From Demetria terragena DSM 11295 (lineage in GTDB: Bacteria; Actinomycetota; Actinomycetes; Actinomycetales; Dermatophilaceae), in NCBI RefSeq assembly GCF_000376825.1, contig NZ_AQXW01000002.1:62001-126000 (forward strand): a DNA stretch of 64,000 bases, written 5' to 3'. Made by a program: the position numbers and the translations under genes. This document shows, piece after piece, positions 32,073 to 46,338 of the stretch. Within the stretch, counting starts at the first letter, position 1. Each line of letters begins with the position of its first letter. The notes under the pieces are model-generated. The model was not told where the DNA came from and searched no databases. It saw only the letters and a program-made list of their open reading frames with translations.

Positions 32073-32149
32073 GGGGCGATAGCTCAGCCGGTTAGAGCAG
32101 CGGACTCATAATCCGTCGGTCCTGGGTTCAAGCCCCAGTCGCCCCACCA
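32073..32149 (+). tRNA. tRNA with CAT anticodon (elongator Met or Ile2)
   Basis: A complete cloverleaf: acceptor GGGGCGA pairs with TCGCCCC, D-arm AGCTCAGCCGGTTAGAGC, anticodon loop CTCATAA with CAT at 32107-32109, T-arm GGTTCAAGCC, discriminator A at 32146 and an encoded CCA at 32147-32149. A CAT anticodon outside the initiator form is either elongator Met or the lysidine-modified Ile2; the initiator-type unpaired first base is absent. Sequence alone does not decide between the two. It borders the accessory-looking stretch downstream. Confidence 0.93.
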
Positions 32150-32592
32150 GAAAACGTCGACTTACCAGGCGTTCCTAAGGTTTTGCAGGGTCGAAGCGCG
32201 ACAGGATTCGTCCGATTCCTCACAAACCCTGAGAACCCTCCAGGGGTCTGGGGCGGTCCATCGGGGGTGGCTGGCTCAGCTGGCACCGCCGTGCGTGAGA
32301 GGAGTTCGGCGAGGGACCCGTCGGGATTATCCGTGCTCGGCCACGCCGTCGCGGTGTTCGGGGTTCAGCACCGACGACGGCGCGCCAGTGATCGCCACGT
32401 CTCCGGAAGCCCGGCGACTTACTTTGGCAGCATGCAGGTGGGCGACGCTGAGGGTTTCGGAAGTTCGTCGACCGGGGGTCGTTCGTGCGGGCGCGCGATC
32501 CGCAGGCGGCCACCGTAACTCGTCTGACCAAGGCACGGGGATGTCGGATCGATGGGCCAGACTATGCAGACCACAATGGCGAGGGGGCGAGG
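32150..32592. other. Gene-poor stretch downstream of the tRNA
   Basis: About 440 bases with no supported gene. Open frames on both strands (about 100-110 residues) have low-complexity Arg, Ser, Pro-rich translations of the type produced by antisense GC-rich DNA, and none has a good ribosome site. No copy of the tRNA 3' end and no integrase remnant is visible. The right end carries the ribosome site (GAGGGGGCGAGG) of the gene at 32593. Confidence 0.55.
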
Positions 32593-32958
32593 ATGGACTG
32601 GCTGAGCACCTTCGTGACGTCCCCGGGGTTCGGTGGCCTCGCGGCCGTGGCGGCTGCCGTCATCGCCTATCGGGGCGCGACCAAGGGTGTCCGGGCGCAG
32701 AACGCACGAGCAATCGAAGACCGGTGGTGGGAGCAGGCCAAGTGGGCGACCGAGAAGCTCGCCGGCGACGACAACGACGTGGCGTTGGGGCTGTCCACGC
32801 TGAACTTCCTGATCGAGCACGCCCCACCGGATTCCAACGCGGTGGCGTTTGTCAGGCATGCAGTCTTTCCGGTGGTTAACGCATCTGGTCTGCTGGACGC
32901 AGGGAGTATCGTGGAGGAACACGCAGGTGAGGAGGCGGATCATGACGACAGCGAATGA
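32593..32958 (+). CDS. Small single-span membrane-anchored protein, unknown function
   Basis: A 121-residue protein. An N-terminal hydrophobic helix, PGFGGLAAVAAAVIAYRGA (about residues 11-29), is followed by a soluble helical part with RAIEDRWWEQAKWATEKL and ALGLSTLNFLIEHAPPDSNAVAFVRHAVFPVVNAS, ending in an acidic tail EEHAGEEADHDDSE. The layout (membrane anchor, RxxxRWWEQxKWA helix) is seen in orphan actinobacterial and phage-like proteins of unknown role. The ATG at 32593 has a strong GAGGGGGCGAGG site. It overlaps the next gene by 17 bases in another frame. Confidence 0.68.
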   Translation: MDWLSTFVTSPGFGGLAAVAAAVIAYRGATKGVRAQNARAIEDRWWEQAKWATEKLAGDDNDVALGLSTLNFLIEHAPPDSNAVAFVRHAVFPVVNASGLLDAGSIVEEHAGEEADHDDSE

Positions 32959-33217
32959 GTCGCAGGTGACGCCCCGGCGCGCGCCCGTGTCCCAGGCGAA
33001 CAGGGTCGCTGCGGCACAGCTCTATGTTGTTGCGAGCGAGAAGTTGGGCGAGCCGGTGCCAGATCGGATTCGAAAGTTAGCTGCCTCGAAGACAACTCGA
33101 ACACGTCAGCAGTCGACGAGCCTGAAGTCGATGGCGACGAATCGGGTAGGTGCTGTGAGCGGTCGCTTCGTTTCGAAGAAGCGGGCAAAGCGGAGGGCAG
33201 CCCGCTCAGCGAACTGA
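32942..33217 (+). CDS. Small basic protein, unknown function
   Basis: A 91-residue protein with net positive charge. The N-terminal half is mixed (RAPVSQANRVAAAQLYVVASEKLGEPVPDRIRKLAA); the C-terminal half is rich in Lys, Arg, Ser and Thr and ends in KKRAKRRAARSAN, suggesting nucleic-acid or acidic-partner binding. It starts inside the 3' end of the preceding gene, whose acidic tail it follows directly, and the opposite charges of the two proteins could mean they work as a pair. That is inference; I do not recognise either family. AGGAGGCGG upstream is a good ribosome site. Confidence 0.62.
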   Translation: MTTANESQVTPRRAPVSQANRVAAAQLYVVASEKLGEPVPDRIRKLAASKTTRTRQQSTSLKSMATNRVGAVSGRFVSKKRAKRRAARSAN

Positions 33218-33369
33218 CCGCCCTGCTGGTCTCGTTCAGCGGGCAGTGCGCCCGATTGTCGTCCATTTTGGCGGGTTGGCGGGCGTTCCCATCTGTGGTC
33301 CGCATTCCCTCACTGCCGTGACCGCTCCGGGTTATGCTTGGGCCCAAATTTCTCGGGGTGGGACGAAAG

Positions 33370-34281
33370 ATGAGAGTTATGAGGGGAACAAAGATCTCGA
33401 CGGCCTTCATTGCCGGGGCACTGGCGCTGGCTGGTTGTGGGGGCTCTTCCGAGGATGGGGCCTCATCTGTGGAGTGGAGCAAGAAGGACCTGGGCGAGCA
33501 GCTTAAGGAAAGCCTCAATGTGCCCAGAGCTGCGATGGGGGATGCGACCTGCAAGAAGGGGTTGCCCGCGGTCAAGAACGCATCGACGACCTGCACGATC
33601 TCGGTGGAGGGCCAGCGGGAGACGTGGCTTGCCATTGTGAAGCCGGCCGGTAAGACCGGTGGTCTGGCACCGGAGTTCAGAGTCGAGGGCAATGACGGAG
33701 AAGGCAATGACGCGGCTGGGTCCACCCCAGCGGTTGACTGCTCTGACGAGGGTCTGTCGCAAGCTGAGTGGATCGAGCATTGTGATAGCGAGGAGGACTT
33801 CCCTGCTGAGGGCGAGAATCCCTTGGAGCCGGTGAAAGTCGCCGTAGGAAAGGCGCACACTTACTTGGCGGGCACGGTCACCGTCGACAAGCTGACCTGC
33901 GGCATACTCGCTCTTCCGGACGTCACGATCGACGAGACACCCGCGACCGCAGACGAGGGGCAGGAGTTCTGCGTGGTGTTCGCGACGGTAGAGAACAGAT
34001 CTAAGAAGCCACTGGACAGTGCACCTACGTTCTACGCGGTGCAAACGTCTGATGGCACCACCTATGCGGGACCAGATGACACGTTGTATGGCGGGTACGA
34101 CGGCGTCGACTTCGGGGGCTTCGCCGACACGATCAACCCCAAGCAGAGCGTTCAGTTCGCCAGCGCCTTCCAGGTGCCCAAGGGTGAACGTCCGACGTCG
34201 GTGCTCACAGAGAGCGAAGAAGACGGCATGTTGGTCGAAGACCCGGACGATTATGCCAGTTTCGAGCTCCCGAATGCGTAG
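33370..34281 (+). CDS. Lipoprotein with DUF4333-like and DUF4352-like regions
   Basis: A 303-residue predicted lipoprotein: RGTKISTAFIAGALALAGC gives a basic head, hydrophobic core and lipobox cysteine at residue 23. Residues about 30-105, with GEQLKESLNVPRAAM, DATCKKGLP and a second Cys in ASTTCTISVEG, fit the small DUF4333 pattern of two cysteines around a strand pair. A linker follows, and the C-terminal part (about 165-300), with FCVVFATVENRSKKPLDSAP and KQSVQFASAFQVPKGERPTSV, fits DUF4352-type immunoglobulin-like domains. Role unknown, probably an outward-facing surface protein. ATG at 33370; a second ATG at 33379 is possible. Confidence 0.78.
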   Translation: MRVMRGTKISTAFIAGALALAGCGGSSEDGASSVEWSKKDLGEQLKESLNVPRAAMGDATCKKGLPAVKNASTTCTISVEGQRETWLAIVKPAGKTGGLAPEFRVEGNDGEGNDAAGSTPAVDCSDEGLSQAEWIEHCDSEEDFPAEGENPLEPVKVAVGKAHTYLAGTVTVDKLTCGILALPDVTIDETPATADEGQEFCVVFATVENRSKKPLDSAPTFYAVQTSDGTTYAGPDDTLYGGYDGVDFGGFADTINPKQSVQFASAFQVPKGERPTSVLTESEEDGMLVEDPDDYASFELPNA

Positions 34282-34309
34282 GCCCTTTGCTCGAGGTCGA
34301 CGGGCGGTC

Positions 34310-34975
34310 CTAGCCGGTAGGGCTCTCGTACAGCCAGATCGCACGGTCCAGGGATCGCACATCCACGCACAGCTCCTCGGCGACCTCCTCGAGTAGGCCA
34401 CGCACCTGGGTCGACGAGAGACGTTGGCTGCCCGAGTGCTCCAGGCACCTGTTCAGATACCGCTGGACCATGACGTCGGGTTTCGATAGGTCAGTCACGC
34501 CGGCGTTCATCAGCAGGTAGGACCACGCCATGTCCCCGAAACCGCTGACCGAACGCCACGCCTCCTTAGTCGTGGATGTCTGCGCGTTTGCCCGGAGGTC
34601 AGCAGCGGTGCACACCGATGGCTCGAGCTGGCACAGCTTGGTGAGTCCTTCGTAGAGCCCGACCGTCCGCAGCCTTTTGGTGCCCGGCAGCTTGCTCTCG
34701 TTGCGCAGGACCTCGACGGCGAAGCGCTCTGGGCCACCGACTGCGTCCATGGCAGCCATGAGCTCCGGGCCACCATCGGTGTCGGCTTTGGGTCGCACGT
34801 CTCGATAGCGGGCGAGGACGTTCCGGACAGCTGGCGACTTGGCTCGCAGCGAGTACGCGGAGTTCAAGGCAGCCAGAGCCAGAGAATCTCTGAACTCGAC
34901 CGGCGCGCCCCAGGTAGTCGGCTTACCCAGATCACGCTTCACAGCGACCAGAAGGGTGCAGGCATCAGGCGTCAT
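34310..34975 (-). CDS. Uncharacterised protein with HhH-GPD-like C-terminal motif
   Basis: A 221-residue cytoplasmic all-helical protein that I do not recognise as a named family. The stretch VSGFGDMAWSYLLMNAG (about 143-159) followed by LSKPDVMVQRYLNRCL resembles the helix-hairpin-helix and following KPD-x-x-V-x-R-x-L helix of endonuclease III-like (HhH-GPD) proteins; similar small proteins occur in defence-associated and mobile regions. The catalytic Lys of endonuclease III and the FeS cysteines are not evident, so glycosylase activity is not claimed. It is convergent with the lipoprotein gene, 28 bases apart, and stands alone. Confidence 0.6.
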   Translation of the reverse strand: MTPDACTLLVAVKRDLGKPTTWGAPVEFRDSLALAALNSAYSLRAKSPAVRNVLARYRDVRPKADTDGGPELMAAMDAVGGPERFAVEVLRNESKLPGTKRLRTVGLYEGLTKLCQLEPSVCTAADLRANAQTSTTKEAWRSVSGFGDMAWSYLLMNAGVTDLSKPDVMVQRYLNRCLEHSGSQRLSSTQVRGLLEEVAEELCVDVRSLDRAIWLYESPTG

Positions 34976-35203
34976 GACCGCACGCTACGGGGTGTGACTG
35001 CGCGAGAGTGCGGATTCCTGGGAAAACGAGGTACTCACCGTACGCCCGAGCGCGACGGCACGTTCTGGTCTCGATCTCTGGTAAATCTGTTTGTCGGGGC
35101 ATGGTGATGAGTCGGTGTCGCGTGAGCCGGATGGTTGTCGGCAGGGCGGCCGTGTGCCCGACGGCGCTGCCGGTGCTGACTGAGAAAACTGGAGGACTCG
35201 CTT

Positions 35204-35239
35204 ATGCCGACGCATATAACGCAGCCTCGATGCACATGA
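35204..35239 (+). CDS. Candidate 11-codon leader ORF coupled to the Imm5-like gene
   Basis: A mini-ORF, MPTHITQPRCT, preceded by GGAGGACTCGCTT, a much better ribosome site than any in front of the downstream gene. Its stop codon overlaps the ATG at 35236 (ATGA). The geometry suggests that translation of the immunity-like gene depends on ribosomes arriving from this leader. It may instead be chance, with the true start further upstream. Confidence 0.3.
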   Translation: MPTHITQPRCT

Positions 35240-35676
35240 CTAACGATCAGGCCACAGGGCCAGAACTGACCAACTTGACTTTGTCCGAACTGGATCGGCA
35301 AGAGTTGATTGAATGGGCCGCTACTTGCGCCCACCGACTCCTGCCATTGTTCGATCGGCATCGTCCGGACGATGACCGACTCGCGATCGCACTCGACGCC
35401 GTCGAGAAATTCCGAGAGGGAAAACTGACGGTCGGCCCAATGCGCAAGCAAGCCCTCGGGTGCCACGCTGCTGCTCGCGACTGCACAGACCCAGCGGCTG
35501 CGTCCGTAGCGCGTGTCTGCGGCCAGGCCGTAGCCGTTGCCCACATGGGTTGGCATGCACGAAACCTGCCGCGCTATACGAACAAAGCCCTCTCGGGCCA
35601 GGCGCTCACTGAAGGATTGGAATTCCAGCGCGCGCACGTGCCCGATCGTTTCCACGTCTACATTTACGGCGAGTGA
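35236..35676 (+). CDS. Putative Imm5-like immunity protein
   Basis: A 146-residue helical protein whose core resembles the Imm-5-like putative immunity family: LDRQELIEWAATCAHRLLPLFDRHRPDDDRLAIAL, then KFREGKLTVGPMRKQALGCHAAAR and a later VCGQAVAVAHMGWHARNLPRY block. In this family Cys/His residues recur at these places. Such proteins are found with contact-dependent or polymorphic toxins, but no toxin, WXG100 or VgrG gene is near. The start at 35236 is uncertain; an ATG at 35230 and a GTG at 35173 are in frame. It is separated from both neighbours by more than 200 bases. Confidence 0.65.
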   Translation: MTNDQATGPELTNLTLSELDRQELIEWAATCAHRLLPLFDRHRPDDDRLAIALDAVEKFREGKLTVGPMRKQALGCHAAARDCTDPAAASVARVCGQAVAVAHMGWHARNLPRYTNKALSGQALTEGLEFQRAHVPDRFHVYIYGE

Positions 35677-35915
35677 AAGGATCGTCGTGTCACGTCCCAA
35701 GGCCGCACTGTCGTGGAGGACGCCCTCAAGCCGACGTCTGTGAACAGCATCCTGGTTCTAATCGCCTCACCCGGCGACGCTTCGGCTCGGAAATCGCAAC
35801 CGGCTGAGCCCGTGGGGGATCGCCGATCCAGCGCCGAGTCTTCGAGTCTGGTCCAGGATGAGCCCCTGCTTCTATGCTGGCCGACGGTCACAGAGGAGCG
35901 GAAGCGGAGGCCCTC

Positions 35916-36125
35916 ATGCACAAGGACAGGTCTGAAGTTGACCAGGAAAGAAACTGGTCCATCTTCTTCATCAGTATCGCCCTGTTTCCTCTCGGGGGTG
36001 TTGCCCTCGTGCTCGGGTACTCAGAGCTCAAGGATCAGGCGACTTCCGAGACGCTGAAGACGTTCGGGCTGCCACTCCTGATTGGCCTGGGTGTGGTGAT
36101 GCACAGGTCGAAGCCCAAAGATTGA
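35916..36125 (+). CDS. Small two-span membrane protein, unknown function
   Basis: A 69-residue protein with two hydrophobic segments, NWSIFFISIALFPLGGVALVLG (about 14-34) and LKTFGLPLLIGLGVVM (about 47-62), separated by YSELKDQATSET and ending in RSKPKD. A GAAGCGGAGG ribosome site lies six bases ahead of the ATG at 35916, which is the best evidence that it is real. No family is recognised. It is the last gene of the accessory-looking stretch; the preceding 239 bases (35677-35915) hold nothing I can support. Confidence 0.5.
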   Translation: MHKDRSEVDQERNWSIFFISIALFPLGGVALVLGYSELKDQATSETLKTFGLPLLIGLGVVMHRSKPKD

Positions 36126-36145
36126 CTGTGTCTCGACACGACGGA

Positions 36146-36865
36146 TCACTGCGTTCCCGTCGGCTCGACCGGCGTTGGCTCGTCGAACTCCTCACCGCGG
36201 GCGATCTCAACCAACGCTGTGATGGTGCTCATCGTCAGGTCGGTGGCGGCGCGTACGGCCTCGGGGTCGTCTGCGCGGCCGGCCCAGGGGGACAAGTCGA
36301 GTGGCGCTCCGACGACGAGGCGCGTGGTGTGCCGGTGCCAGAGGTGGCGGTTGCCGGGACGAGGCCCCCACTGACCGATGGGAATGACCGGGACCTGCGG
36401 GTGGGCCAACGCAAGCCTGGCTGCGCCGGTGCGACCTGGCCCGGGGCGCAAATCCGGTTGTTTGGTCAACTGCCCCTCCGGGTAGAGCACGACGACCTGG
36501 CCTAACTCGAGACGTTCCGCAGCGGCCTGAAGGGAACCGGCAGCAGCTGCCGTACCGCGTTCGACAGGGATCTGACCGGTCCAGCGCGCCAGCGTGCCCA
36601 CGACGGGCCAGGAGAACACCTCGGCCATGGCTAAGAAGTGGGGAAAGCGGCGGTGCCCAATCGTCAGTCGGGCCACCGCAAGAGCCTCTGACATCGACAG
36701 ATGGTTCGCGACGATGAGGACCGGACCTGATCTCGGGAGATGTGCCGAGTGGGTGAAGCGCACCCGGTGTGCAATCTTCGCGGTGACCCAGACCAGCGTG
36801 AAGCCGGCGGCGTTCTTCAACGCCTTCGGCTTCAGATTGTCCTTCACAGTGGCAACAGCGCGCAT
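36146..36865 (-). CDS. PlsC-like lysophospholipid acyltransferase with altered catalytic motif
   Basis: A 239-residue protein of the 1-acylglycerol-3-phosphate acyltransferase family. The NHxSxxD motif reads NHLSMSE, so His55 is present but the paired acid at residue 60 is Glu rather than Asp. The second motif region GTLARWTGQIPVERG and the VVLYPEGQLTKQPDLRP (PEG) block are intact, as is VPVIPIGQWGPR near residue 160. An N-terminal hydrophobic stretch around residue 22-30 suggests peripheral membrane association. Substrate unknown. The ATG is at 36863-36865; it diverges from the epimerase gene. Confidence 0.8.
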   Translation of the reverse strand: MRAVATVKDNLKPKALKNAAGFTLVWVTAKIAHRVRFTHSAHLPRSGPVLIVANHLSMSEALAVARLTIGHRRFPHFLAMAEVFSWPVVGTLARWTGQIPVERGTAAAAGSLQAAAERLELGQVVVLYPEGQLTKQPDLRPGPGRTGAARLALAHPQVPVIPIGQWGPRPGNRHLWHRHTTRLVVGAPLDLSPWAGRADDPEAVRAATDLTMSTITALVEIARGEEFDEPTPVEPTGTQ

Positions 36866-36955
36866 GGCGTAAGGCTAGGGATGTTGGCCAGGACGTGCTC
36901 GATTCCGCCGATACTGCGGCGGGTGTTCATCTCGACCGCGTGCGAGAGTATGCGG

Positions 36956-37999
36956 ATGAAGGTCCTCCTGACTGGTGCCGCTGGGTTCATCGGCACGGCA
37001 ATAGCGCGTGAGTTGAATAGTCGTGGGGCGGAGGTTGTTTGCGTCGACCTGATGCTGGAGCAGGCGCATGGAAACACGTTGCCTCCGGAGGGAATTCACC
37101 AACTCGACGTGCGCGACGCGCGACAGTGGGCACACCTGCTCGACGGCGTCGACGTCGTATGCCATCAAGCCGCGGTCGTGGGGGCAGGCGCCAACGTGGC
37201 CGATCTGCCGCTGTATGCCTCGCACAACGACCTCGGAACGGCGGCTCTGCTCGCGGCGATGCACGAGCGAAATGTCTCCAGCCTGGTCCTTGCGTCGTCC
37301 ATGGTTGTTTACGGCGAAGGACTGTATTCCTGTGTGCAGCACGGGATTCGGCGCCCACAGCCTCGCGCGACCGCCGACCTGGACGCGGGAGTTTACGATC
37401 CGACCTGCCCAGATTGTGGAGCCCGGCTCGCGTGGGAGTTGGTGGGGGAGGATGCCCCACTCGACCCGCGGAGTGCGTATGCCGCCAGCAAACTCGCGCA
37501 GGAGCATTACGCCTCGGCGTGGGCCCGTGCGACGAGCAGTAGCGTCATCGCCCTGCGCTATCACAACGTCTACGGTCCAGGAATGCCGCGAGACACCCCG
37601 TACTCCGGCGTTGCGGCCATGTTCCGATCGTCTCTTGAGCGCGGATTGGCCCCGCAGGTCTATGAGGACGGCGCGCAGACACGCGACTTCGTCCATGTCC
37701 ACGACATTGCCCGCGCGAACGCGCTGGCCATTGAGGCGGCGGGGGAGCACGACACCGGGTTGGTGGCCTACAACGTGTGTTCGGGGCGCCCCGTCACGAT
37801 CGGTCAGGTCGCGGAACTGGTGTCATCCGGCACCGAAGCCAACCTGACGCCAGAGGTGACCGGTGCTTACCGGCTGGGTGATGTGCGGCACGTGGTCGCC
37901 TCGCCGCAGCGCGCTGCACACGAACTGGGATTCATCGCCGCGGTCGACCCCACGGACGGCTTGCCAGCCTTTGCCACGGAGCCACTTCGGGAGGGCTAG
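36956..37999 (+). CDS. NAD-dependent epimerase/dehydratase with CxxC insert
   Basis: A 347-residue extended short-chain dehydrogenase acting on a nucleotide sugar by family. The NAD motif is VLLTGAAGFIGTAIA at residue 3, with LDVRDARQW and the catalytic YAASK at Tyr175/Lys179. RYHNVYGPGMPRDTPYSGV and RDFVHVHDIARA follow as usual. Between the early SSMVVYGEGL strand and the active site lies an insert with Cys126, Cys151 and Cys154 (CPDCGARLAW), a zinc-ribbon-like piece found in some actinobacterial epimerases of this type. The ATG at 36956 follows GAGAG by seven bases; an ATG two codons upstream is also possible. Confidence 0.86.
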   Translation: MKVLLTGAAGFIGTAIARELNSRGAEVVCVDLMLEQAHGNTLPPEGIHQLDVRDARQWAHLLDGVDVVCHQAAVVGAGANVADLPLYASHNDLGTAALLAAMHERNVSSLVLASSMVVYGEGLYSCVQHGIRRPQPRATADLDAGVYDPTCPDCGARLAWELVGEDAPLDPRSAYAASKLAQEHYASAWARATSSSVIALRYHNVYGPGMPRDTPYSGVAAMFRSSLERGLAPQVYEDGAQTRDFVHVHDIARANALAIEAAGEHDTGLVAYNVCSGRPVTIGQVAELVSSGTEANLTPEVTGAYRLGDVRHVVASPQRAAHELGFIAAVDPTDGLPAFATEPLREG

Positions 38000-38007
38000 A
38001 AAGCTGG

Positions 38008-39351
38008 CTACCAACTGGTGTGCAGTAGGTGCTGCACGAGGAGTGCAAAGGCGATCTGAACTGCCAGTCCGCCGGTTCGCCACCGCGGCGGTAAGAGGGC
38101 GCAGGACAGCAAGAGCCATGGGACAAACGGTAGCCAGATCCGTTCTACCTCAGCCTTACTCATGAGGGACAGGTCCGCCGCGGCCACCATGGCTATCCCT
38201 GCGCCGCTGAGCCACAGCACGGCTCGCGTCGCAGCTTCGGTCGGACGCACGCGCAACACCCGTCGCACCCACTCCGCGACACCGGCACCCAGCAACGGTC
38301 CGGCTGCGAAAGTCAACGCTGCAAGGTTGGCCCAAATCCAGTACGAAGCAGGGCGGCTACTGGCGATGCCATCCCAATACCGCTCGCGCAGAACGGAGAT
38401 CGCCTCCCACCAAGCGAATCCGAAGGCGGCGAATGCGCCAACAACCACCAAGGCGCTCACGATGGTGGGAATCAGCGGGCGCCACGACTTCGCCACGACC
38501 AGGACCGCCACGGCCAGAAGGCCAAACAGCGGCAAGCCGTACGACATCATCACCAGGTAGCCAAGAAGTAGACCGGCGAGCGCCGAGAAGCCAAGCATCG
38601 TTCCGAGCGACTTGCGCGTCGCGGAATAGGCCAATGCGGCGATTCCCCAGGCCCCTACCGCGGCGAAGACCGCATCTGCTGACACTGCGTGCCAGATCGC
38701 CGCGGGGCCGATGGTGACGAACGGTGCTGCGCGACGTGCCAATTCGGGCGCACCAAGAACCCGGACGGTGATCAGCACGCCGACGGCCGTCGTCGCGCCC
38801 AGGAGCGTGACCACCATGCCAGCGGCGAACCCACCGCCCAATCCGGTGCGGGCCAGCAGGACGAAGAAGAGCAAGGCCCCCGGCGGGTGGCCAGCGACGT
38901 GCGTCGGCCAGTTCCCCGTGGGTGCGTCCAGGGGAATCTTGCTGATGTAGTCGTTCAAGACCATGGGCACGTCGTTGACCGCTCGTGCGGTCTGCAAGTA
39001 CTCGTAGTCGTTTCCGAGGATGTAGCCGATACCGCTGCTGCCATCGACCATCGCCAGGGATAACGCCCAGGCGGCACCTGTCACCCAACACACCGCGAGC
39101 AGTCGCCGCCACGGCCATGATTCGCAAACCCGTTGCCCGTAGACCAAGACCAGAAACGCGATGAGAAGGGCGGAGAGGGTCCCTGGTCCAACCCGCGGCT
39201 GCCAGTTCGCGTGGATCGGCGGAAAGGACTTGATATTGACCTCCCACCCGGTGATGGCGGGGAGGGCCATCGCCAAGACCGCGATGACGGTGACGACGGC
39301 AAGTCCCCACGATGCGTAGCGCGAAGCGGAGCTATCCCGAACTGTAGTCAC
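38008..39351 (-). CDS. Polytopic membrane protein, GT-C glycosyltransferase-like
   Basis: A 447-residue integral membrane protein with about 10-12 hydrophobic segments. Between the early segments is a large outward loop with NDYEYLQTARAVNDVP and then THVAGHPPGALLFFVLL; an HPPG-type motif after a polar loop is typical of lipid-linked GT-C glycosyltransferases of actinobacteria. The first loop DYEY could serve as the acidic catalytic motif. Donor and acceptor are unknown. The GTG at 39351 starts the hydrophobic N-terminus; a longer frame exists but lacks a ribosome site. It lies convergent to the epimerase and divergent from the GT2 operon. Confidence 0.75.
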   Translation of the reverse strand: MTTVRDSSASRYASWGLAVVTVIAVLAMALPAITGWEVNIKSFPPIHANWQPRVGPGTLSALLIAFLVLVYGQRVCESWPWRRLLAVCWVTGAAWALSLAMVDGSSGIGYILGNDYEYLQTARAVNDVPMVLNDYISKIPLDAPTGNWPTHVAGHPPGALLFFVLLARTGLGGGFAAGMVVTLLGATTAVGVLITVRVLGAPELARRAAPFVTIGPAAIWHAVSADAVFAAVGAWGIAALAYSATRKSLGTMLGFSALAGLLLGYLVMMSYGLPLFGLLAVAVLVVAKSWRPLIPTIVSALVVVGAFAAFGFAWWEAISVLRERYWDGIASSRPASYWIWANLAALTFAAGPLLGAGVAEWVRRVLRVRPTEAATRAVLWLSGAGIAMVAAADLSLMSKAEVERIWLPFVPWLLLSCALLPPRWRTGGLAVQIAFALLVQHLLHTSW

Positions 39352-39466
39352 GCCTCGACGGTAGGCGTTGCGGCCGGCAATTTGGCTGCTGGGAGACGTG
39401 GCGTCACCGATCTGTAAGGGTTCTGAGCCCACGAGAACGGTGTGGTGAATCTACGGTGAGCGGGTG

Positions 39467-40123
39467 ATGAACGATTGCACTCTGATCTTGCCGTGCCGCG
39501 ATGAAGGCATTGCCCTGCGCGCGGTGTTGCCAGCCGTGCCACCAGCTTTCGAGGTCCTGGTAGTCGACAACGGATCGACGGATGACACCGTTGAAGTCGC
39601 CCGCGCGGCCGGTGCTCGGGCCATCCACGAAGCCCAGCCGGGGTATGGCGCAGCGGTTCATGCTGGAGTCCTTGCCGCGACCACGCAGTGGGTCGCCGTG
39701 ATGGACGGGGACGATTCCTTCGATCCAGCGGACCTTCTGCCACTTCTGGACGATGTACGCCTCGGACGGTCCACGATGTCCGTGGGGAGGCGTCGACCAG
39801 TCCGGTCGGCCGACTGGCCCTGGCACGCCCGGTTCGGTAACAACCTCGCAGTCAGCGCGCTCCGCCGCCGGGGCGATTTTCCCCTCCACGACATCTCGCC
39901 GATGCGTGTTGCGGCTCGCCAAGACCTGCTTGACCTCGACATCCAGGACCGGCGTTTTGGTTATCCCGTCGAGCTCATGCGCCGCGCGGTGGATGCGGGC
40001 TGGAGCTTCACCGAACACGAGGTGGCCTACCGTCCGCGTGCTGAGGGCACCAAGTCAAAGGTGTCCGGATCCGTGCGCGGAACGGTGCGTACCGCCCGCG
40101 ACTTCTACGCGGTGCTGCGATGA
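39467..40123 (+). CDS. Family 2 glycosyltransferase
   Basis: A 218-residue GT2 enzyme with a GT-A fold: TLILPCRDEG, then EVLVVDNGSTDDTVEVARAAGA, the acceptor-side QPGYGAAVHAGV, and the metal-binding acidic motif MDGDDSFDP. It is of the TIGR04283-like short type that usually occurs beside a DUF2064 (TIGR04282) gene, as here. No membrane segments, so it probably works at the cytoplasmic face on a polyprenyl-linked acceptor (inference). A GTG one codon before the ATG is an alternative start. Its stop codon overlaps the next start (ATGA). Confidence 0.87.
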   Translation: MNDCTLILPCRDEGIALRAVLPAVPPAFEVLVVDNGSTDDTVEVARAAGARAIHEAQPGYGAAVHAGVLAATTQWVAVMDGDDSFDPADLLPLLDDVRLGRSTMSVGRRRPVRSADWPWHARFGNNLAVSALRRRGDFPLHDISPMRVAARQDLLDLDIQDRRFGYPVELMRRAVDAGWSFTEHEVAYRPRAEGTKSKVSGSVRGTVRTARDFYAVLR

Positions 40124-40797
40124 GCGTTGAATTGCTGTTGGTTGCCAAAGCCCCTGTGCCCGGATTGGCGAAGACTCGACTCGGAGCAACGGTCGGAATG
40201 ACTGCTGCTGCCGACCTTGCAGCTGCCGCCCTGCTCGACTCAATCGACCTGTGCGCCAACGTTTTTCCTGGCCGCTGCCACCTAGCACTTGACGGAGACC
40301 TGAGGGCGGCTGCGCGAGGCATGGAGACAGAGCAGCGGCTGTCGGAATGGGCTGTCTTCGGCCAAGAAGGTGAGACCTTTGCCGAACGCCTCGCTCACGC
40401 ACACCGAATCGTGGGCGCAGGTGCGGGTGTACGCACTCTCCAGATCGGCATGGACACCCCGCAGATTTCACCGGACGAACTGCGCAGGGGCGCCGAAGCA
40501 CTCGACTCCGGCTCGCCCCTCGTGCTGGGGCCAGCTGCCGACGGAGGCTGGTGGCTGCTGGGCTTAGGTGATCCGCGGGCCGCCGACGCTCTCGCGGATG
40601 TCCCAATGTCCCAACCGGATACGCGAACTGAGACCGTTCGCGCGCTTCGCAAAGTCCTTGGCGAAGAGATCGAACCGGTGCTCCTCGCGGAACTGGTCGA
40701 CATTGACGATGCGTCCGATGCCCAAACGGTCGCTGACACCTACCCGACTGGCCGCTTCAGCCGCCTGTGGGCGGAACTTTCTGGAGCCCGGACATGA
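40120..40797 (+). CDS. DUF2064 / TIGR04282 family glycosyltransferase-like protein
   Basis: A 225-residue nucleotidyl/glycosyltransferase-fold protein. The opening LLLVAKAPVPGLAKTRLG matches the KxPxPGxxKTRL signature of this family. Later motifs are LQIGMDTPQISPDEL and LVLGPAADGGWWLLGLG, also conserved. Family members are distantly related to CofC-like nucleotidyltransferases and GT-A enzymes; no activity is proven for most. It overlaps both neighbours by four bases (ATGA), so it is firmly inside the GT2 operon. Confidence 0.88.
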   Translation: MSVELLLVAKAPVPGLAKTRLGATVGMTAAADLAAAALLDSIDLCANVFPGRCHLALDGDLRAAARGMETEQRLSEWAVFGQEGETFAERLAHAHRIVGAGAGVRTLQIGMDTPQISPDELRRGAEALDSGSPLVLGPAADGGWWLLGLGDPRAADALADVPMSQPDTRTETVRALRKVLGEEIEPVLLAELVDIDDASDAQTVADTYPTGRFSRLWAELSGART

Positions 40798-41435
40798 CCT
40801 TGATGGAATCACCCTTGGACGCGGTCTATACGGCTGCCTTAGGCGGCGAAGACTGCCAGGTCACCAACGTGCACGGGCATTCCTTGCCGCTCCCGGTGGC
40901 GCAATGGTCCAGGACGGCGACTGACAGCGATATCGCGGTGCTATCGCATTGCGTGGGTACGACGCTCGACGTGGGCTGCGGTCCGGGACGCATGACGGAG
41001 ATGCTCACCGGGCGAGGCCATATCGCGCTAGGAGTCGATGTCGTGCCTGCCGCGGTCAACCTGACTATGGCCAGGGGTGCCATGGCGATGACCTGCGATG
41101 TGTTTGGACCCGTTCCGGGAGAAGGGAATTGGGACACGGCGCTGCTCGCCGATGGCAATGTCGGTATCGGGGGAGATCCGGTGGCGTTGCTGGGCCGGCT
41201 GGCCGAACTCATCACCCCGAAGGGCCGTATCGTCGCCGACATCAGCCCGCCGGGTATCACCGTTCAACGGCGACGGTTGTGGTTGGAAACGACGACGTCA
41301 CGAAGCCGACCGTTCCCATGGGCCGAAGTGGGCGTCGACGGGATCGCGTCTGTGGCCGGTGCGGCTGGTCTCGGGGTGCCACAGGTCTATCGGGTCGGCG
41401 CACGCTGGTTCGCCGTCGTTCGGCGAGGGCGCTGA
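40794..41435 (+). CDS. Class I SAM-dependent methyltransferase
   Basis: A 213-residue methyltransferase. SAM motif I is TLDVGCGPGRMTEML, with the acidic motif II in ALGVDVVPAAV, and a LADGNVGIGGDPVALLGRLAELITPKGRIVADI segment follows. The N-terminal portion with AALGGEDCQVTNVHG is shared by methyltransferases found in the GT2-DUF2064 cluster. Substrate unknown. Its ATG overlaps the DUF2064 stop, and the molybdopterin oxidoreductase gene follows after one base. Confidence 0.85.
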   Translation: MTLMESPLDAVYTAALGGEDCQVTNVHGHSLPLPVAQWSRTATDSDIAVLSHCVGTTLDVGCGPGRMTEMLTGRGHIALGVDVVPAAVNLTMARGAMAMTCDVFGPVPGEGNWDTALLADGNVGIGGDPVALLGRLAELITPKGRIVADISPPGITVQRRRLWLETTTSRSRPFPWAEVGVDGIASVAGAAGLGVPQVYRVGARWFAVVRRGR

Positions 41436-41436
41436 C

Positions 41437-42630
41437 ATGGTCGAGCGGCTCCGAGAGCGGGTGCAACGAGCGATGGAAGCGGCCCCTTTGCCGCATGAGG
41501 GCCGCTTCACCTCACGGCTGCATAGCCCGGCCGTCGCCGCACGCATCGGCGTGTGGCTCGGCGTGTGTTTTCTGCTGACCTTTGTCACCGGGTGGCTTAG
41601 CCATGAGGCACAGAATCCCGAGACGTGGGTACCGTTCCCCACTCAACCTGCCTGGCTCTACCAAGTGACGCAGGGTGTGCACGTCGTCGTCGGAACAGCC
41701 TCGATTCCCTTGCTGCTCCTCAAATTGTGGACGGTCTACCCCAAACTCTTTGCACCCATACCGACGCGTGCCCGCCGACTTCTCATCGTGGGGATCGAAC
41801 GGGCGTCGATCGCGGCATTGGTGGCCAGTTCCATCTTCCAGGTGGTCACCGGCGTGATGAATGCCGCGCAGTGGTACCCCTGGGAGTTCAGTTTCCGCGC
41901 CACGCACTACGCCTTGGGCTGGGTAGCAATCGGGTCTTTGGGAATTCACATCGCCGTCAAGTTGCCCGTGATCAGACGCGCTCTGGGCGCCGACATCGAC
42001 GCGGTCCAGGACGACCACCCGGCAGCGACCCGTCCCAGCACTCTGAGCCGCCGCGGGTTGGTGAATAGCGCGCTCCTCGCGTCGGGTATCGCCATGCTGA
42101 CCACAGCCGGAAGTACGGTGCCGTTCCTGCGGCGAGTGTCGGTCTTTGCGGTGCGTTCAGGGGAGGGCCCGCAAGGAATACCGATCAACCGATCGGCCCG
42201 CGCCGCAGGCGTACTCGAGACGGCCCGGGCCGACTCCTATGAACTGACCGTGGTCAACGGCGACACGCGTCGGACCTTCAGCAGAGCCGATCTGGAGGAA
42301 TTGCCCCAACGCACCCATGACCTTCCGATCGCATGCGTTGAAGGATGGAGTGCCACCGGGTCATGGAGCGGCGTCGTGCTTCGGGACTTGCTGGAGCTGG
42401 TTGGTGCCCCGATGGGTCGGGACGTTCGGGTCGTCTCCTTGCAAACTCGCGGTTCGTTCGGACGAACGATTCTCCCGCATCAGTTCGTGGACGAGCCCCA
42501 GACCTTGATTGCGCTGAGCCTCAACGGATCTGAGCTCTCTATTGATCACGGCTTTCCATGTCGGCTGATTGCTCCCAACCGTCCGGGAGTCCTTCAAACC
42601 AAGTGGATCACTCGACTGGAGGTGCTGTGA
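41437..42630 (+). CDS. Membrane-anchored molybdopterin-dependent oxidoreductase
   Basis: A 397-residue fusion. The N-terminal half has about four membrane helices (for example RIGVWLGVCFLLTFVTGW and ALGWVAIGSLGIHIAVKL) with histidines in GVHVVVG, THYALG and GIHIAV placed as possible haem ligands, like cytochrome b561-type anchors. The C-terminal half (about 240-397) is a sulfite-oxidase/YedY-like domain, with the molybdenum-ligand Cys300 in IACVEGWSATGSWSGV and the SFGRTILPHQF region. A redox role at the outer face of the membrane is likely. A twin-arginine-like SRRGLVN lies between the halves. Confidence 0.83.
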   Translation: MVERLRERVQRAMEAAPLPHEGRFTSRLHSPAVAARIGVWLGVCFLLTFVTGWLSHEAQNPETWVPFPTQPAWLYQVTQGVHVVVGTASIPLLLLKLWTVYPKLFAPIPTRARRLLIVGIERASIAALVASSIFQVVTGVMNAAQWYPWEFSFRATHYALGWVAIGSLGIHIAVKLPVIRRALGADIDAVQDDHPAATRPSTLSRRGLVNSALLASGIAMLTTAGSTVPFLRRVSVFAVRSGEGPQGIPINRSARAAGVLETARADSYELTVVNGDTRRTFSRADLEELPQRTHDLPIACVEGWSATGSWSGVVLRDLLELVGAPMGRDVRVVSLQTRGSFGRTILPHQFVDEPQTLIALSLNGSELSIDHGFPCRLIAPNRPGVLQTKWITRLEVL

Positions 42631-43073
42631 TGGAGCGGGTTGTTCGCGCCGCACTGGTGGTAGCGAGTGCGCTCGCGCTGGCATACGGCGTCCGGTTGCT
42701 CCTCGCCCAGGAGCAGGACAAGGTGGTTGCCGCTGGCACCTGGTTGCTCGCGGGCGTCATCCTGCACGATGGGGTGCTGGTTCCCCTGGTACTTGGCATC
42801 GCGGCCGTACTGACCTTGCTGCACGTTCAGCTCCCGCGGCCGATCGTGGTCGGTCTCATCGTCATTGGATCCGTGACGTTGGCCGTCGTTCCCATGCTGG
42901 GCCGATTCGGTGCACGACCAGATAACGCGACACTGCTGGACCGGAACTACCTGGCCGGCTGGGTTATCTTCGCCAGTGTGACCCTGGGGTTGAGCGCGCT
43001 CGCCACCCTGCGACAGCGCGACCGCACGGCTGAGGCAGGTGAGCAGGTTGGCACGGGTTCTGGTCGTCGATGA
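42630..43073 (+). CDS. Four-span membrane protein, unknown function
   Basis: A 147-residue hydrophobic protein with about four predicted membrane segments (AALVVASALALAYGVRLLL, TWLLAGVILHDGVLVPLVLGIA, IVVGLIVIGSVTLAVVPM, YLAGWVIFASVTLGLSALA) and a charged C-terminal tail. The HDGVLVPL motif is conserved among small proteins in this cluster type but has no assigned function. The ATG overlaps the previous stop (TGATG), and 35 bases of its 3' end overlap the response-regulator gene, tying the operon together. Confidence 0.72.
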   Translation: MERVVRAALVVASALALAYGVRLLLAQEQDKVVAAGTWLLAGVILHDGVLVPLVLGIAAVLTLLHVQLPRPIVVGLIVIGSVTLAVVPMLGRFGARPDNATLLDRNYLAGWVIFASVTLGLSALATLRQRDRTAEAGEQVGTGSGRR

Positions 43074-43731
43074 TGACCTCACCGTTCGGGAAGTCGTGGT
43101 GTCCTATCTCAAGGTGGCTGGCCATGAGGTCCACGAGGCGGCCGATGGCGAAGACGCGCTGCGTGCCGTTCGCCAATACCGGTTCGATGTGGTTGTCCTC
43201 GACTTGATGCTGCCCGGGGTGGACGGGTTCGAGGTATGCCGGCGGCTGCGCGCCATGGGTGGCGTGCCCGTCATCATGCTCACGGCGCTCGGAGATGAGA
43301 CCCACCGCGTCGATGGGCTGGAGGCTGGCGCTGATGACTACGTCACCAAGCCGTTTAGCCCGCGGGAGCTTGTCCTTCGTGTGGCGGCCCTGATTCGGCG
43401 TGCGGGCGAGCGCTCGGCTCCCGCTCACGGAGTGGTCACTGACGGTGATCTTTCGATCGACGCCGAGCGGCATCGGGCCACGCTCGCCGGAACACCACTC
43501 AATCTCACCGGCCGCGAGTACGACCTCTTGCAGTTTCTCGTAGCGCACCCGGACATCGCCTATTCCCGGGACGACTTGCTCCAGGAGGTCTGGGGTTGGA
43601 GTTTCGGGGACCAATCGACGGTGACCGTGCACGTACGCCGGCTTCGGGAGAAAGTTGAGCGCGAGCCTCAGTCACCCACCAGACTGGTCACCGTCTGGGG
43701 CGTGGGCTACCGCTGGGTGCCCGCATCATGA
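43039..43731 (+). CDS. OmpR/PhoB family response regulator
   Basis: A 230-residue two-component response regulator. The receiver domain has the acidic cluster VDDD, phospho-acceptor Asp55 in VVLDLMLPGVDG, Thr in VIMLTAL and Lys in DDYVTKPFSP. The C-terminal winged helix (about 130-228) has LNLTGREYDLLQFL, SRDDLLQEVWGW and HVRRLREKVE. The GTG at 43039 starts the protein inside the preceding membrane-protein gene. The overlapping histidine kinase follows (ATGA). Its targets are not known; location suggests control of the upstream envelope and redox genes. Confidence 0.92.
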   Translation: MSRLARVLVVDDDLTVREVVVSYLKVAGHEVHEAADGEDALRAVRQYRFDVVVLDLMLPGVDGFEVCRRLRAMGGVPVIMLTALGDETHRVDGLEAGADDYVTKPFSPRELVLRVAALIRRAGERSAPAHGVVTDGDLSIDAERHRATLAGTPLNLTGREYDLLQFLVAHPDIAYSRDDLLQEVWGWSFGDQSTVTVHVRRLREKVEREPQSPTRLVTVWGVGYRWVPAS

Positions 43732-44846
43732 GCGATCAACTACAGATCGCGCTCCTCGCGGGCGGCTGGTCGATCGTCGTCGCGTTGATCGGACTCAGCC
43801 TGTTGTGGTGGGGACGGCGCCGGTCATTGCGAGTCCTGGTGCCGGGAGTCGTAGTCGTCGCCGTGGCTGCGGCACTCGCGGGCGTCTACGGAGCAGCGCG
43901 CGCCATGTTCGTCTCACCGCACGACTTCACGGTGATGGCCTGGGTGCTGTGCATCGCCGGAGTGATCACCTGCCTCTGCGCCGCTGTCGTGGGCTGGGCG
44001 TTTTCCAGGTGGTCTCGCTCACTGCAGCAGGCCGTGGGGTCGTTCGCGGAGACCGGTCAATTCGAAGCGCTCAGGGACATGCCAGCCGAGCTGGACGGAA
44101 TATCGCGCGAACTAGCCTCGGCCAGCATCAGATTGGGTCTTGCCCGCGAGCGCGAAGAACGCCTGGAAGGCTCGCGCCGAGAACTCATCTCCTGGGTATC
44201 GCACGACCTGCGTAGTCCACTCGCGGGGATCCGGGCCATGGCCGAATCGCTCGAAGACGGCATTGCAGAAGATCCTGATCGCTATCACCGTCAGATTCGT
44301 GCCGAGGTCGACCGGTTGGCGCTTATGGTTGATGACCTCTTTGAACTCTCCCGCATCAACGCCGGCAGTTTTCACGTCAACCGGGAACCGGTATCCCTGA
44401 GCGACCTGGTCAGCGAGGCGCTCGCAAGCGCCGAACCGATGGCCAGGACACGTGGGGTAGGCATCGATGGAGTGGTCGACGACGGACTCCAACTCCAGGC
44501 AGACCCCGGTGGCATCTCGCGAGTCCTGTCGAACTTGGTCACCAACGCGATCCGCCATACCGAGGTGGGCGGAGCCGTTCATATCCACGCCACCTCCCGC
44601 GACAGCAGCATCGAATTGTCCGTTGCCGATGGATGTGGAGGCATGCCCGACCACGAACTCGAGCGGGTATTTGACATGGCCTGGCAACGAAGTCGGGCTC
44701 GAACCCCGACCCAGGCGACAGCGTTCAGCAGTGGCGCAGGCCTTGGCTTGGCCATCGTTCGGGGAATCATCGACGCCCACGGCGGCACGATTTCGGTGAC
44801 GAACGCACCGCCGGGCTGCCGGTTTTTGGTACGTCTGCCAGGCTGA
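43728..44846 (+). CDS. Sensor histidine kinase
   Basis: A 372-residue membrane histidine kinase, partner of the adjacent regulator. Three N-terminal hydrophobic segments (about 8-28, 36-55 and 68-92) leave little outward loop, so the signal may be sensed in the membrane. The HAMP-like linker leads to the dimerisation helix with His159 in SWVSHDLRSPLAGIRAM. The ATPase domain shows the N box VLSNLVTNAIRHTEVGG, G1 VADGCGGMPD and G2 SSGAGLGLAIVRGII. The protein overlaps the regulator gene by four bases. The ligand is unknown. Confidence 0.92.
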   Translation: MSDQLQIALLAGGWSIVVALIGLSLLWWGRRRSLRVLVPGVVVVAVAAALAGVYGAARAMFVSPHDFTVMAWVLCIAGVITCLCAAVVGWAFSRWSRSLQQAVGSFAETGQFEALRDMPAELDGISRELASASIRLGLAREREERLEGSRRELISWVSHDLRSPLAGIRAMAESLEDGIAEDPDRYHRQIRAEVDRLALMVDDLFELSRINAGSFHVNREPVSLSDLVSEALASAEPMARTRGVGIDGVVDDGLQLQADPGGISRVLSNLVTNAIRHTEVGGAVHIHATSRDSSIELSVADGCGGMPDHELERVFDMAWQRSRARTPTQATAFSSGAGLGLAIVRGIIDAHGGTISVTNAPPGCRFLVRLPG

Positions 44847-44976
44847 GTGACTGCAGCACTTGGTACAGATGTGACAGGTGAGGCATACTGTGTGGCATAA
44901 CCGAAGACGCACGACATGCGAGACCGCGATCACGAGGCCGTTGGGGAAGACGTCTCTCGTTGCTAGGAGGTCCCGG

Positions 44977-45492
44977 ATGTCTGTCGCCGTGTCGCACGTC
45001 GCCACGCGCGGGGTGGTTTTTGTGCACTCCACCCCGACGGCGTTGTGCCCGCATGTTGAATGGGCGCTAGACGCCGTCCTCGACTCGCCCGTACGCCTGG
45101 AGTGGACCAACCAACCCATCGCGCCCGGACTCGTCCGGGGTGAGGTGTCTTGGTCGGGCCCTCAAGGCACGGGCGCGCGCCTGGCTTCTGCTTTGCGGGG
45201 CTGGGAACACCTTCGCTATGAGATCACCGAGGATCCCAGTCCCGGTGCCGATGGCAGCCGCTGGTCGCACACGCCCTCGTTGGGTATCCACCACACCTGG
45301 ACGTCCGCCAACGGCGACGGAATGGTTGCCGAGGACCGCTTGCGATCTGCGCTCGCCGCGAGCGGCGGAAACCCGGAGGCGTTTCGGGGCGAAATGGCCG
45401 AGTTGCTGGGCACCGCGTGGGACCAGGAACTCGAGCCCTTCCGTTGCGCTGGCGATGGTGCCACCGTCCGTTGGCTGCACCGCGTGAGTTGA
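44977..45492 (+). CDS. DUF3145 family protein
   Basis: A 171-residue actinobacterial signature protein. The opening TRGVVFVHSTPTALCPHVEWAL, the RLEWTNQPIAPGLVRGEVSW block and SLGIHHTWTSANGDGMVAEDRL are conserved in DUF3145. Function unknown; the family is almost confined to actinobacteria. The ATG at 44977 follows TAGGAGG by eight bases. A promoter-like TTGGTA (about 44860) and CATACT separated by 18 bases lies upstream. The stop codon abuts that of the convergent esterase gene. Confidence 0.9.
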   Translation: MSVAVSHVATRGVVFVHSTPTALCPHVEWALDAVLDSPVRLEWTNQPIAPGLVRGEVSWSGPQGTGARLASALRGWEHLRYEITEDPSPGADGSRWSHTPSLGIHHTWTSANGDGMVAEDRLRSALAASGGNPEAFRGEMAELLGTAWDQELEPFRCAGDGATVRWLHRVS

Positions 45493-46338
45493 TCAGTCGG
45501 TCAGCTTGTTGTATGCCCGCAGATAGCGGCGACCCAAGGTGATGAGGCCGGCGCGGTTGAAGTGGATCGGGTCCTTGGGGAAGGACTCACACGAGTCCGA
45601 TGAAACCCATCCGGTGTGCGGCACCCGCGTTGGGAGCTCTCGCAGGGAAGCCCGAATGCGTGGCACGCGCGAAGTGACACCTGGGTACGCCTGCTCTTGC
45701 GGGGCGCCGTCCCAGCGGGGAGAGAGGTTGCCGACGATGAACGGCAGTTTCGGTGAGTTTGCGTCGGATCGGATGTCGGCGATGAGTTGGTCGAGCCGGT
45801 CGGCGTATTGCGAGGTGTCGGTCTCGGTGAAGGTGTCGGTCTCGCCTTGGTGCCACAGCACGCCCTTGAAGACGCCTCGAGGTTGCGCAAACGCCAACCG
45901 TGAGAGGAAGTCGTTGTAGGTCGGCGTGCCTTTGTGAAGCTTGGTGATTCCGGCGCCGCCCCATGCCAAGGGGAGCAGACCGACCGTGACGCCCGGGTTC
46001 TCGCGCACGTATCGCTCGGCGAAGACCAGGCCCAGCCCGAACCGATCCGAGATGAGTCGGTTGTGCAGCGGGTGCACGGAGGGCCGCCAGATATTGGGAT
46101 CGGCGGTCACCGTCGGCAGGTGCACGATGTTCTTGCGGGGCCGCACATCGTCTTCGGTGAGCTCACCGTTCCCGGCCATATTGGACTGGCCCATCAGCGC
46201 GAAGATGTGGAATTTGTTGCGTCGAGTGGGAACGCGGTGCGTCCTGGCCTGAGTGGATGCGACAGGAACGATGGCAGCCAGGCCACTGGCGCCAGTAGCC
46301 GCCGAAACAAGGGCCGTGCGGCGATTGATATGGCTCAT
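45493..46338 (-). CDS. Secreted sialate O-acetylesterase-like hydrolase
   Basis: A 281-residue SGNH-fold esterase with an export signal that looks Tat-like (INRRTALVSAATGASGLAAIVP). The catalytic serine is Ser52 in ALMGQSNMAG; WHQGETD carries the family's oxyanion/His block, and DPIHFNRAG contains the catalytic Asp-x-x-His at the C-terminus. The GVLWHQGE and PLAWGGAGI segments match carbohydrate esterases of the sialate O-acetylesterase group (CE6/SASA), so deacetylation of glycans is likely. The ATG at 46338 has AGGAGACG upstream. It stands alone, convergent to DUF3145. Confidence 0.82.
   Translation of the reverse strand: MSHINRRTALVSAATGASGLAAIVPVASTQARTHRVPTRRNKFHIFALMGQSNMAGNGELTEDDVRPRKNIVHLPTVTADPNIWRPSVHPLHNRLISDRFGLGLVFAERYVRENPGVTVGLLPLAWGGAGITKLHKGTPTYNDFLSRLAFAQPRGVFKGVLWHQGETDTFTETDTSQYADRLDQLIADIRSDANSPKLPFIVGNLSPRWDGAPQEQAYPGVTSRVPRIRASLRELPTRVPHTGWVSSDSCESFPKDPIHFNRAGLITLGRRYLRAYNKLTD

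Follow-up and report, generated by a model that had tools for sequence, protein, structure and literature searches.

We analyzed the interval at positions 32073-36125 of a 64,000-nucleotide stretch (here called the window) of the Demetria terragena DSM 11295 genome, which opens with a tRNA-Met gene and carries six protein-coding genes, P0001 to P0006. According to our explanation, held at about even confidence, the interval forms the portion nearest the tRNA of a gene-exchange spot, within an accessory island that carries an uncharacterized DNA glycosylase of the HhH-GPD fold, probably acting against mobile elements. The candidate glycosylase is P0003, a 221-amino-acid (aa) protein of an unnamed defence-associated family (34310-34975, minus strand; profile alignment, Foldseek and family neighbours), and it is the most informative gene of the interval. 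Base-excision defence has been shown only recently, with enzymes of the uracil-glycosylase fold. If the explanation is true, a second glycosylase fold would serve this kind of defence, extending the mechanism. The P0003-type family has escaped notice because neither Pfam nor PADLOC has a profile for it and because its products in plasmid records are annotated as "hypothetical protein" or "heme peroxidase."

The defence association emerges from the neighbours of the family. Of 27 genome stretches, five were set aside: L193, L195 and L200 for being short or near-duplicates, and L203 and L207 for want of a called family gene. The 114 neighbours within three genes on either side at the 22 loci left were compared with 115 neighbours of Imm5_like genes as controls. 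At E<=1e-10, the family neighbours matched 142 PADLOC families versus 6 for the controls, a contrast to be read as a ratio and not as a number of systems because many PADLOC models overlap. A verified defence gene was present in 7 of the 22 loci: a type ISP restriction-modification (R-M) enzyme in L194, GmrSD and a PLD-helicase in L202, GmrSD in L206, CBASS ThiF/E2, cyclase and JAB genes in L201 (the cyclase being the fourth gene away), ThsB of Thoeris and PDC-S35 in L211, UzuA of Uzume in L213, and a TmtA-like ATPase in L192. Beyond these seven, Abi_2 and type III R-M genes lie beside the P0003 relative of L105, a type ISP enzyme is found near the relative on a Dermacoccus plasmid, and methyltransferases are found near those on Paenarthrobacter plasmids.

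Two of these loci deserve a description of their own. In L192 (786-7254), the family domain forms the C-terminal portion of a protein of 523 aa. The N-terminal portion, which matches nothing in Pfam or PADLOC, contains a D..EAK stretch by eye; this protein adjoins a giant ATPase/helicase with similarity to TmtA and type IV restriction. In L194 (3-6984), the type ISP R-M gene, a DUF6119 protein gene and the P0003-family gene are consecutive, and the next gene looks kinase-like by eye; this arrangement is possibly an undescribed multi-gene defence cluster. Separately, a GIY-YIG protein near the relatives in G016 and Paenarthrobacter was considered as part of a conserved pair and rejected because the proteins of the two places show no sequence relationship to each other.

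The family is also patchy and mobile. Relatives of P0003 were found in 7 of the 58 relatives compared (genomes of the same bacterial family, none of the same genus), 22 of 394 class genomes and 19 of 396 phylum genomes, the own genome being counted each time, and a stop codon interrupts 6 of the 25 matches of the class search (394 genomes). Nine of 72,556 plasmid records match P0003; six of the matches, at 57-58% identity, are on Paenarthrobacter and Arthrobacter plasmids, and six of the nine plasmids are typed as conjugative. The search of genome contigs yielded one relative, 57% identical, in Arthrobacter sp. RIT-PI-e. In the tree, P0003 groups with the Paenarthrobacter/Arthrobacter plasmid proteins and the Arthrobacter sp. 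protein. When the DNA of the interval was searched against plasmids, only the pieces under P0003 matched. Phage records gave no match to P0003, and viral contigs held no relative of it or of one P0003 relative searched likewise.

Four lines of evidence, all below threshold, agree on an HhH-GPD fold for P0003, so this fold is supported, although not proven, by profile and model comparisons. The NCBIfam model PRK01229 (N-glycosylase/DNA lyase) aligns with residues 140-217 at E 0.18, below its cut-off. Using 32 family rows, some of them duplicates, hhalign comparisons with HhH-GPD proteins of related genomes gave E values of 0.013 for the EndoIII type, 0.016 for another HhH-GPD group and 0.039 for the MutY type, versus 0.46 for both the Imm5_like and P0001-family controls. 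A smaller profile of 11 rows gave 0.12 and 0.21, the latter away from the motif. The alignments place G145-FG of P0003 on the helix-hairpin-helix (HhH) motif and, for the EndoIII and MutY groups, D167 on the catalytic-aspartate motif. Asp167 is kept in 28 of the 32 rows and Lys165 in 26. In EndoIII, an aspartate is catalytic and a lysine is the lyase residue; at the position aligned with this lysine, 28 of the 32 rows have I, V or L and one has K, and P0003 would consequently be monofunctional. A Foldseek search of 350,542 chains with a low-confidence model of P0003 put MjOgg first (E 0.11, probability 0.66), with MutY ranked 15 and 26. VIA structural re-alignment of the same low-confidence model listed 50 rows, 33 of which are HhH-GPD glycosylases by title, and its row 5 is the phage base-modifying enzyme gp46/PUGT. 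When the P0003 profiles were run against the sequences of the Protein Data Bank (PDB), the best hits (E 0.22 and 0.24) were Dps proteins, at chance level. A preliminary description of this DNA had called P0003 HhH-GPD-like, and hhalign, Foldseek and VIA support this at the fold level, though below profile cut-offs.

Compared with the HhH-GPD glycosylases (Ogg2/AGOG/EndoIII/MutY), P0003 would share the predicted helical fold, the HhH-like glycine motif and the position of the conserved aspartate. It differs from them in falling below the PF00730 and NCBIfam cut-offs, in having no lysine at the lyase position, and in its mobile, defence-linked distribution. In the open-access library searched, no paper tied HhH-GPD to "defense island" or "anti-phage." Brig1 and Brig3 are defence DNA glycosylases of the uracil DNA glycosylase (UDG) superfamily (PMC11078745, PMC13160076), encoded like P0003 relatives by glycosylase-type genes in defence islands, and the Brig1 relatives are mostly actinobacterial. 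Unlike these enzymes, which have another fold, P0003 has no UDG profile match in Pfam; it would work alike but belong outside that family. PabI-type restriction glycosylases have yet another fold. aGPT-Pplase is a predicted defence domain among the unvalidated candidates of DefensePredictor (PMC13092281). The likeness to P0003 lies in a base- or nucleotide-modifying domain predicted in defence and in the gp46/PUGT row mentioned above, whereas P0003 and six relatives have no Pfam match to any such model.

Elsewhere in the bacterial family, as relatives show, elements enter the tRNA 3' end via tyrosine integrases; in the genome of the window, accessory genes have piled up in the space from tRNA-Met(CAT) to the DUF3145-fab cluster. 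The genes of the interval would be independent, single or paired, instead of forming one operon system. The P0003 family travels both in defence islands and on plasmids of the conjugative type. By the proposed mechanism, P0003 would most likely bind foreign DNA, flip out a particular, probably modified, base, and cut the N-glycosidic bond via the conserved Asp167, beside Lys165. The abasic sites left behind would then block replication or feed a partner nuclease. More tentatively, P0003 might found a mobile family of defence glycosylases with an HhH-GPD fold unrelated to Brig1-3, removing (possibly hypermodified) bases from incoming phage and plasmid DNA and spread via conjugative plasmids and tRNA islands of Actinobacteria. 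In this wider proposal, at least one relative (G170), with an N-terminal domain that looks nuclease-like by eye, would join excision and cutting in one protein.

It is important to consider the points that weigh against a defence glycosylase. P0003 lies below all curated cut-offs in Pfam and NCBIfam, has no Pfam or PADLOC model, and was not reported when PF00730 was searched in its own genome at E<=10. The model, built from two sequences, has low confidence (predicted local distance difference test [pLDDT] 54.6, predicted template modelling score [pTM] 0.46), and the best VIA Z of 4.8 is in a range that the tool calls unsafe, as it may reflect no more than a common helical arrangement. Base excision on foreign DNA is a predicted activity for the whole family. 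On reading, the remaining 15 of the 22 loci have no recognized defence gene, and a mycobacterial-type branch of the family lives among ordinary genes. The P0003 of the window has no recognized defence neighbour either; the link to nucleic-acid defence suggested in the preliminary description is supported for the family, by its recurrent siting beside known defence systems, and not for the window copy itself. Finally, the codon use of P0003 is host-like. This last feature would also be expected if P0003 were ordinary cargo, a housekeeping-type repair glycosylase carried by mobile elements in an interval with no defence gene, which we consider possible but doubtful. Also in favour of this reading, known HhH-GPD members are mostly repair enzymes, and the same ordinary genes flank both L191 and L193, which are of the mycobacterial type. 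Repair cargo agrees poorly, however, with the patchy presence (22/394) and interrupted copies of the gene (6/25), the enriched defence neighbours, and the relatives on conjugative plasmids.

The other half of our explanation, the exchange spot, concerns the site itself. As the preliminary description had it, a CAT tRNA with an encoded CCA lies at 32073-32149 on the plus strand (ARAGORN, Rfam RF00005); it forms the left border and is the integration site in relatives. The anticodon may be that of an elongator Met or a lysidine-type Ile2 tRNA, the ARAGORN call being Met. The variable region extends from 32150 to 44976, the noted interval being its first third, and ends at a conserved DUF3145 gene (44977-45492, plus strand; PF11343, E 7.9e-72), followed on its 3' side by fabF, acpP, fabH and fabD (fab names from reading the sequences), an order that relatives keep. 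The spacing from the tRNA to DUF3145 is 12.8 kb between genes and 12.9 kb from start to start, in a genome of 3.57 Mb. The tRNA is present in 57 of 59 family genomes searched, and its surroundings were taken from 20 stretches, picked partly for extra partial tRNA copies, with genes tabulated in 19 (L122 was too short). Among these 19, DUF3145 lies 3' of the tRNA in 6 and 5' of it in 8, and it is out of reach in the other 5. The six 3'-side copies start 226, 367, 4712, 4783, 5501 and 8369 bases from the tRNA start; the junction is nearly direct in G353 (226) and G017 (367), and other relatives have several kilobases of different genes in between. The gluABCD genes are near the tRNA in several relatives (L106, L107, L114, L121, L125).

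Partial copies of the tRNA 3' half lie 3' of the tRNA in 7 of the 20 stretches, with a 5'-half copy near the tRNA in 1 more, and all six candidate integrases tested near the tRNA in relatives belong to PF00589. In L111, a tRNA repeat right before DUF3145 closes a stretch that carries an integrase, the junction being the same as in the window. Given these copies, integrases and this junction, the tRNA-Met site is an integration hotspot and gene-exchange spot in the family, and its occupation by integrase-bearing elements in relatives is the behaviour of a tRNA-targeted element. The window shares this site with tRNA-gene integrative islands, which carry integrases and 3' tRNA repeats there in relatives, but its own copy has no integrase and no repeat in the searches made. 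A second tRNA 3' end is absent from the window (<=3 mismatches) and the genome (<=2 mismatches), and the best ungapped match of the tRNA to 32150-46000 is not above that of a shuffled tRNA. In agreement with the preliminary description, profile scans of the noted interval matched no integrase and no toxin; of the genes at 36-45 kb, the one at 36146 was scanned by profile and the others were judged by eye. Codon use deviates in P0006 (z -3.4), P0005 (-2.6), P0004 (-2.4) and P0002 (-1.8) and not in P0001 or P0003.

The expectation of a variable interval between fixed flanks was partly borne out: the tRNA-bordered spot is variable, but the epimerase cluster, proposed as the right flank, was rejected as such since it lies inside the variable part and the true flank is DUF3145-fabF at 44977. 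Epimerase relatives (E<=1e-60) occur in 6 of 34 genomes searched, the own genome included, and in none of the 19 tabulated tRNA neighbourhoods; the G003 copy is ~145 kb from the tRNA. Elsewhere, at distances of ~5.2 and ~9.7 kb from its intact tRNA, G022 carries two partial copies in tandem (L106, 5671-15396), probably two small islands one after the other.

P0004 (35236-35676, plus strand) is a divergent, C-terminally short Imm5_like protein by profile and alignment. The Imm5-like identity proposed earlier is firm (PF21805, 117.9 bits against a cut-off of 25, E 3.6e-34; classic Imm5, PF14423, just 14.2 bits). While the match is far above the cut-off, P0004 is 31-36% identical to the canonical members, which are ~171 aa long and strongly conserved across the class, and it is without their conserved C-terminal end. 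Relatives of P0004 were found in 25 of the 58 relatives, and 64 of 296 class genomes contain PF21805; there are three PF21805 genes in the own genome, including a canonical copy elsewhere. The preliminary description took the unpaired gene as a sign of a decayed or new defence spot. In that case, P0004 would be an orphan immunity gene, either a remnant of the toxin systems of neighbours or acquired as protection from them, for which its PF21805 membership, its deviating codon use and the known existence of orphan immunity and polyimmunity loci speak. The original polymorphic-toxin survey (PMC3482391) places Imm5 alongside toxins, but it also reports polyimmunity loci that have none.

The loci themselves make this origin improbable. 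The gene was recognized by script in 38 of 43 Imm5_like loci (40 stretches plus 3 from the own genome); no toxin was noticed on reading among the neighbours within two genes, which are unrelated ordinary genes, and 115 of the 190 neighbours within three genes, scanned against profiles, matched 120 Pfam families, with no such toxin among the 25 listed. PF21805 is thus solitary in the inspected loci across the class, and its canonical members are conserved to a degree unlike that of a fast-changing immunity gene. Within this bacterial family, it is fused to Arr (PF12120, rifampin-modifying) in G016 and G015; by motif it is also fused in G028, and an Arr-like open reading frame lies beside it in G170. 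Since PF21805 is solitary in the loci inspected and also occurs fused to Arr, the lack of a partner is uninformative and no sign of a lost toxin. Consequently, the tempting inference from a toxin-less Imm5_like gene, which is ordinary in Actinobacteria, had to be corrected: in our explanation, P0004 is a bystander that stands alone among the accessory genes, its type being known in fusion with Arr as well, and Imm5_like may belong with drug-resistance genes. The Imm5_like-Arr sites are L213 (10902-11852), L138 (4974-5924), L019 (near 2043) and L165 (near 4918, minus strand). Searches for P0004 elsewhere added little: viral contigs gave one weak partial match, its single-sequence model was poor (pLDDT 51.2), a PDB sequence search with the Imm5_like profile led nowhere, and no paper in the open-access library searched mentions PF21805 or Imm5-like.

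All six open reading frames listed in the preliminary description are present, and it regarded the interval as the place most likely to hold one undescribed system. That P0001, P0006, P0002, P0003, P0004 and P0005 form a single system is very improbable, and this candidate was rejected, as no evidence was found that they belong together. They are adjacent, and in G016 and G380 (a broken copy) a P0003-family gene and an Imm5_like gene are also less than 6 kb apart. Besides the window, Imm5_like genes occur in 2 of 34 P0003-family stretches (L213 and, as a broken copy, L194), both from the bacterial family of the window; the chance of such co-location in 2 of 7 stretches of this bacterial family is 9e-5, a rough value estimated after seeing the data. 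Nevertheless, P0003 is on the strand opposite to the other five, G022 has P0001-P0006 without the others, no P0003 relative turned up in any of the 40 Imm5_like stretches, and the stretches round P0003 relatives, plasmids included, hold no relative of P0001, P0002, P0005 or P0006.

Among the six proteins, only P0002 (DUF4352) and P0004 (Imm5_like) are above a curated cut-off, so the profile search suggested for each protein succeeded for these two and gave nothing above cut-off for P0001, P0003, P0005 and P0006. None of the six matches a PADLOC model at E<=1. P0002 (33370-34281, plus strand) is a lipoprotein with DUF4352 (33.4 bits, cut-off 25.9) and phrog_806 (E 2.6e-10); of the two families first suggested for it, DUF4333 stays below its cut-off (18.8 bits against 27). 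P0005 (35874-36125, plus strand) is an 83-aa peptide with two hydrophobic stretches and, like P0001 and P0006, no Pfam family above cut-off.

P0001 (32593-32958, plus strand), a membrane-anchored helical protein with an acidic tail, is the first gene of a two-gene cassette; the second, P0006 (32942-33217, plus strand), encodes a small basic protein and, as had been described, overlaps it, the overlap being 17 bases. P0001 relatives are rare (6 of 58 relatives, 5 of 296 genomes), and there is none in viral contigs; plasmid records hold no relative of P0001 or P0006. The P0001 homologue of G022 is 62% identical and overlaps the second gene as in the window. In G052 and G218, the gene after the P0001 relative encodes a related small partner, which carries a DUF2188 domain in G218, and P0006 has a motif in common with the partners in G022, G052 and G218. 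The cassette of an anchor and a small basic protein, overlapping or adjacent (window 32593-33217; L037, 10366-10885; L041, ~5017-5813; L218, 1360-2335), is conserved across distant Actinobacteria. The P0001-type anchor is also joined to pentapeptide repeats in G010 (L040) and, by eye, to a nuclease-looking domain in L219.

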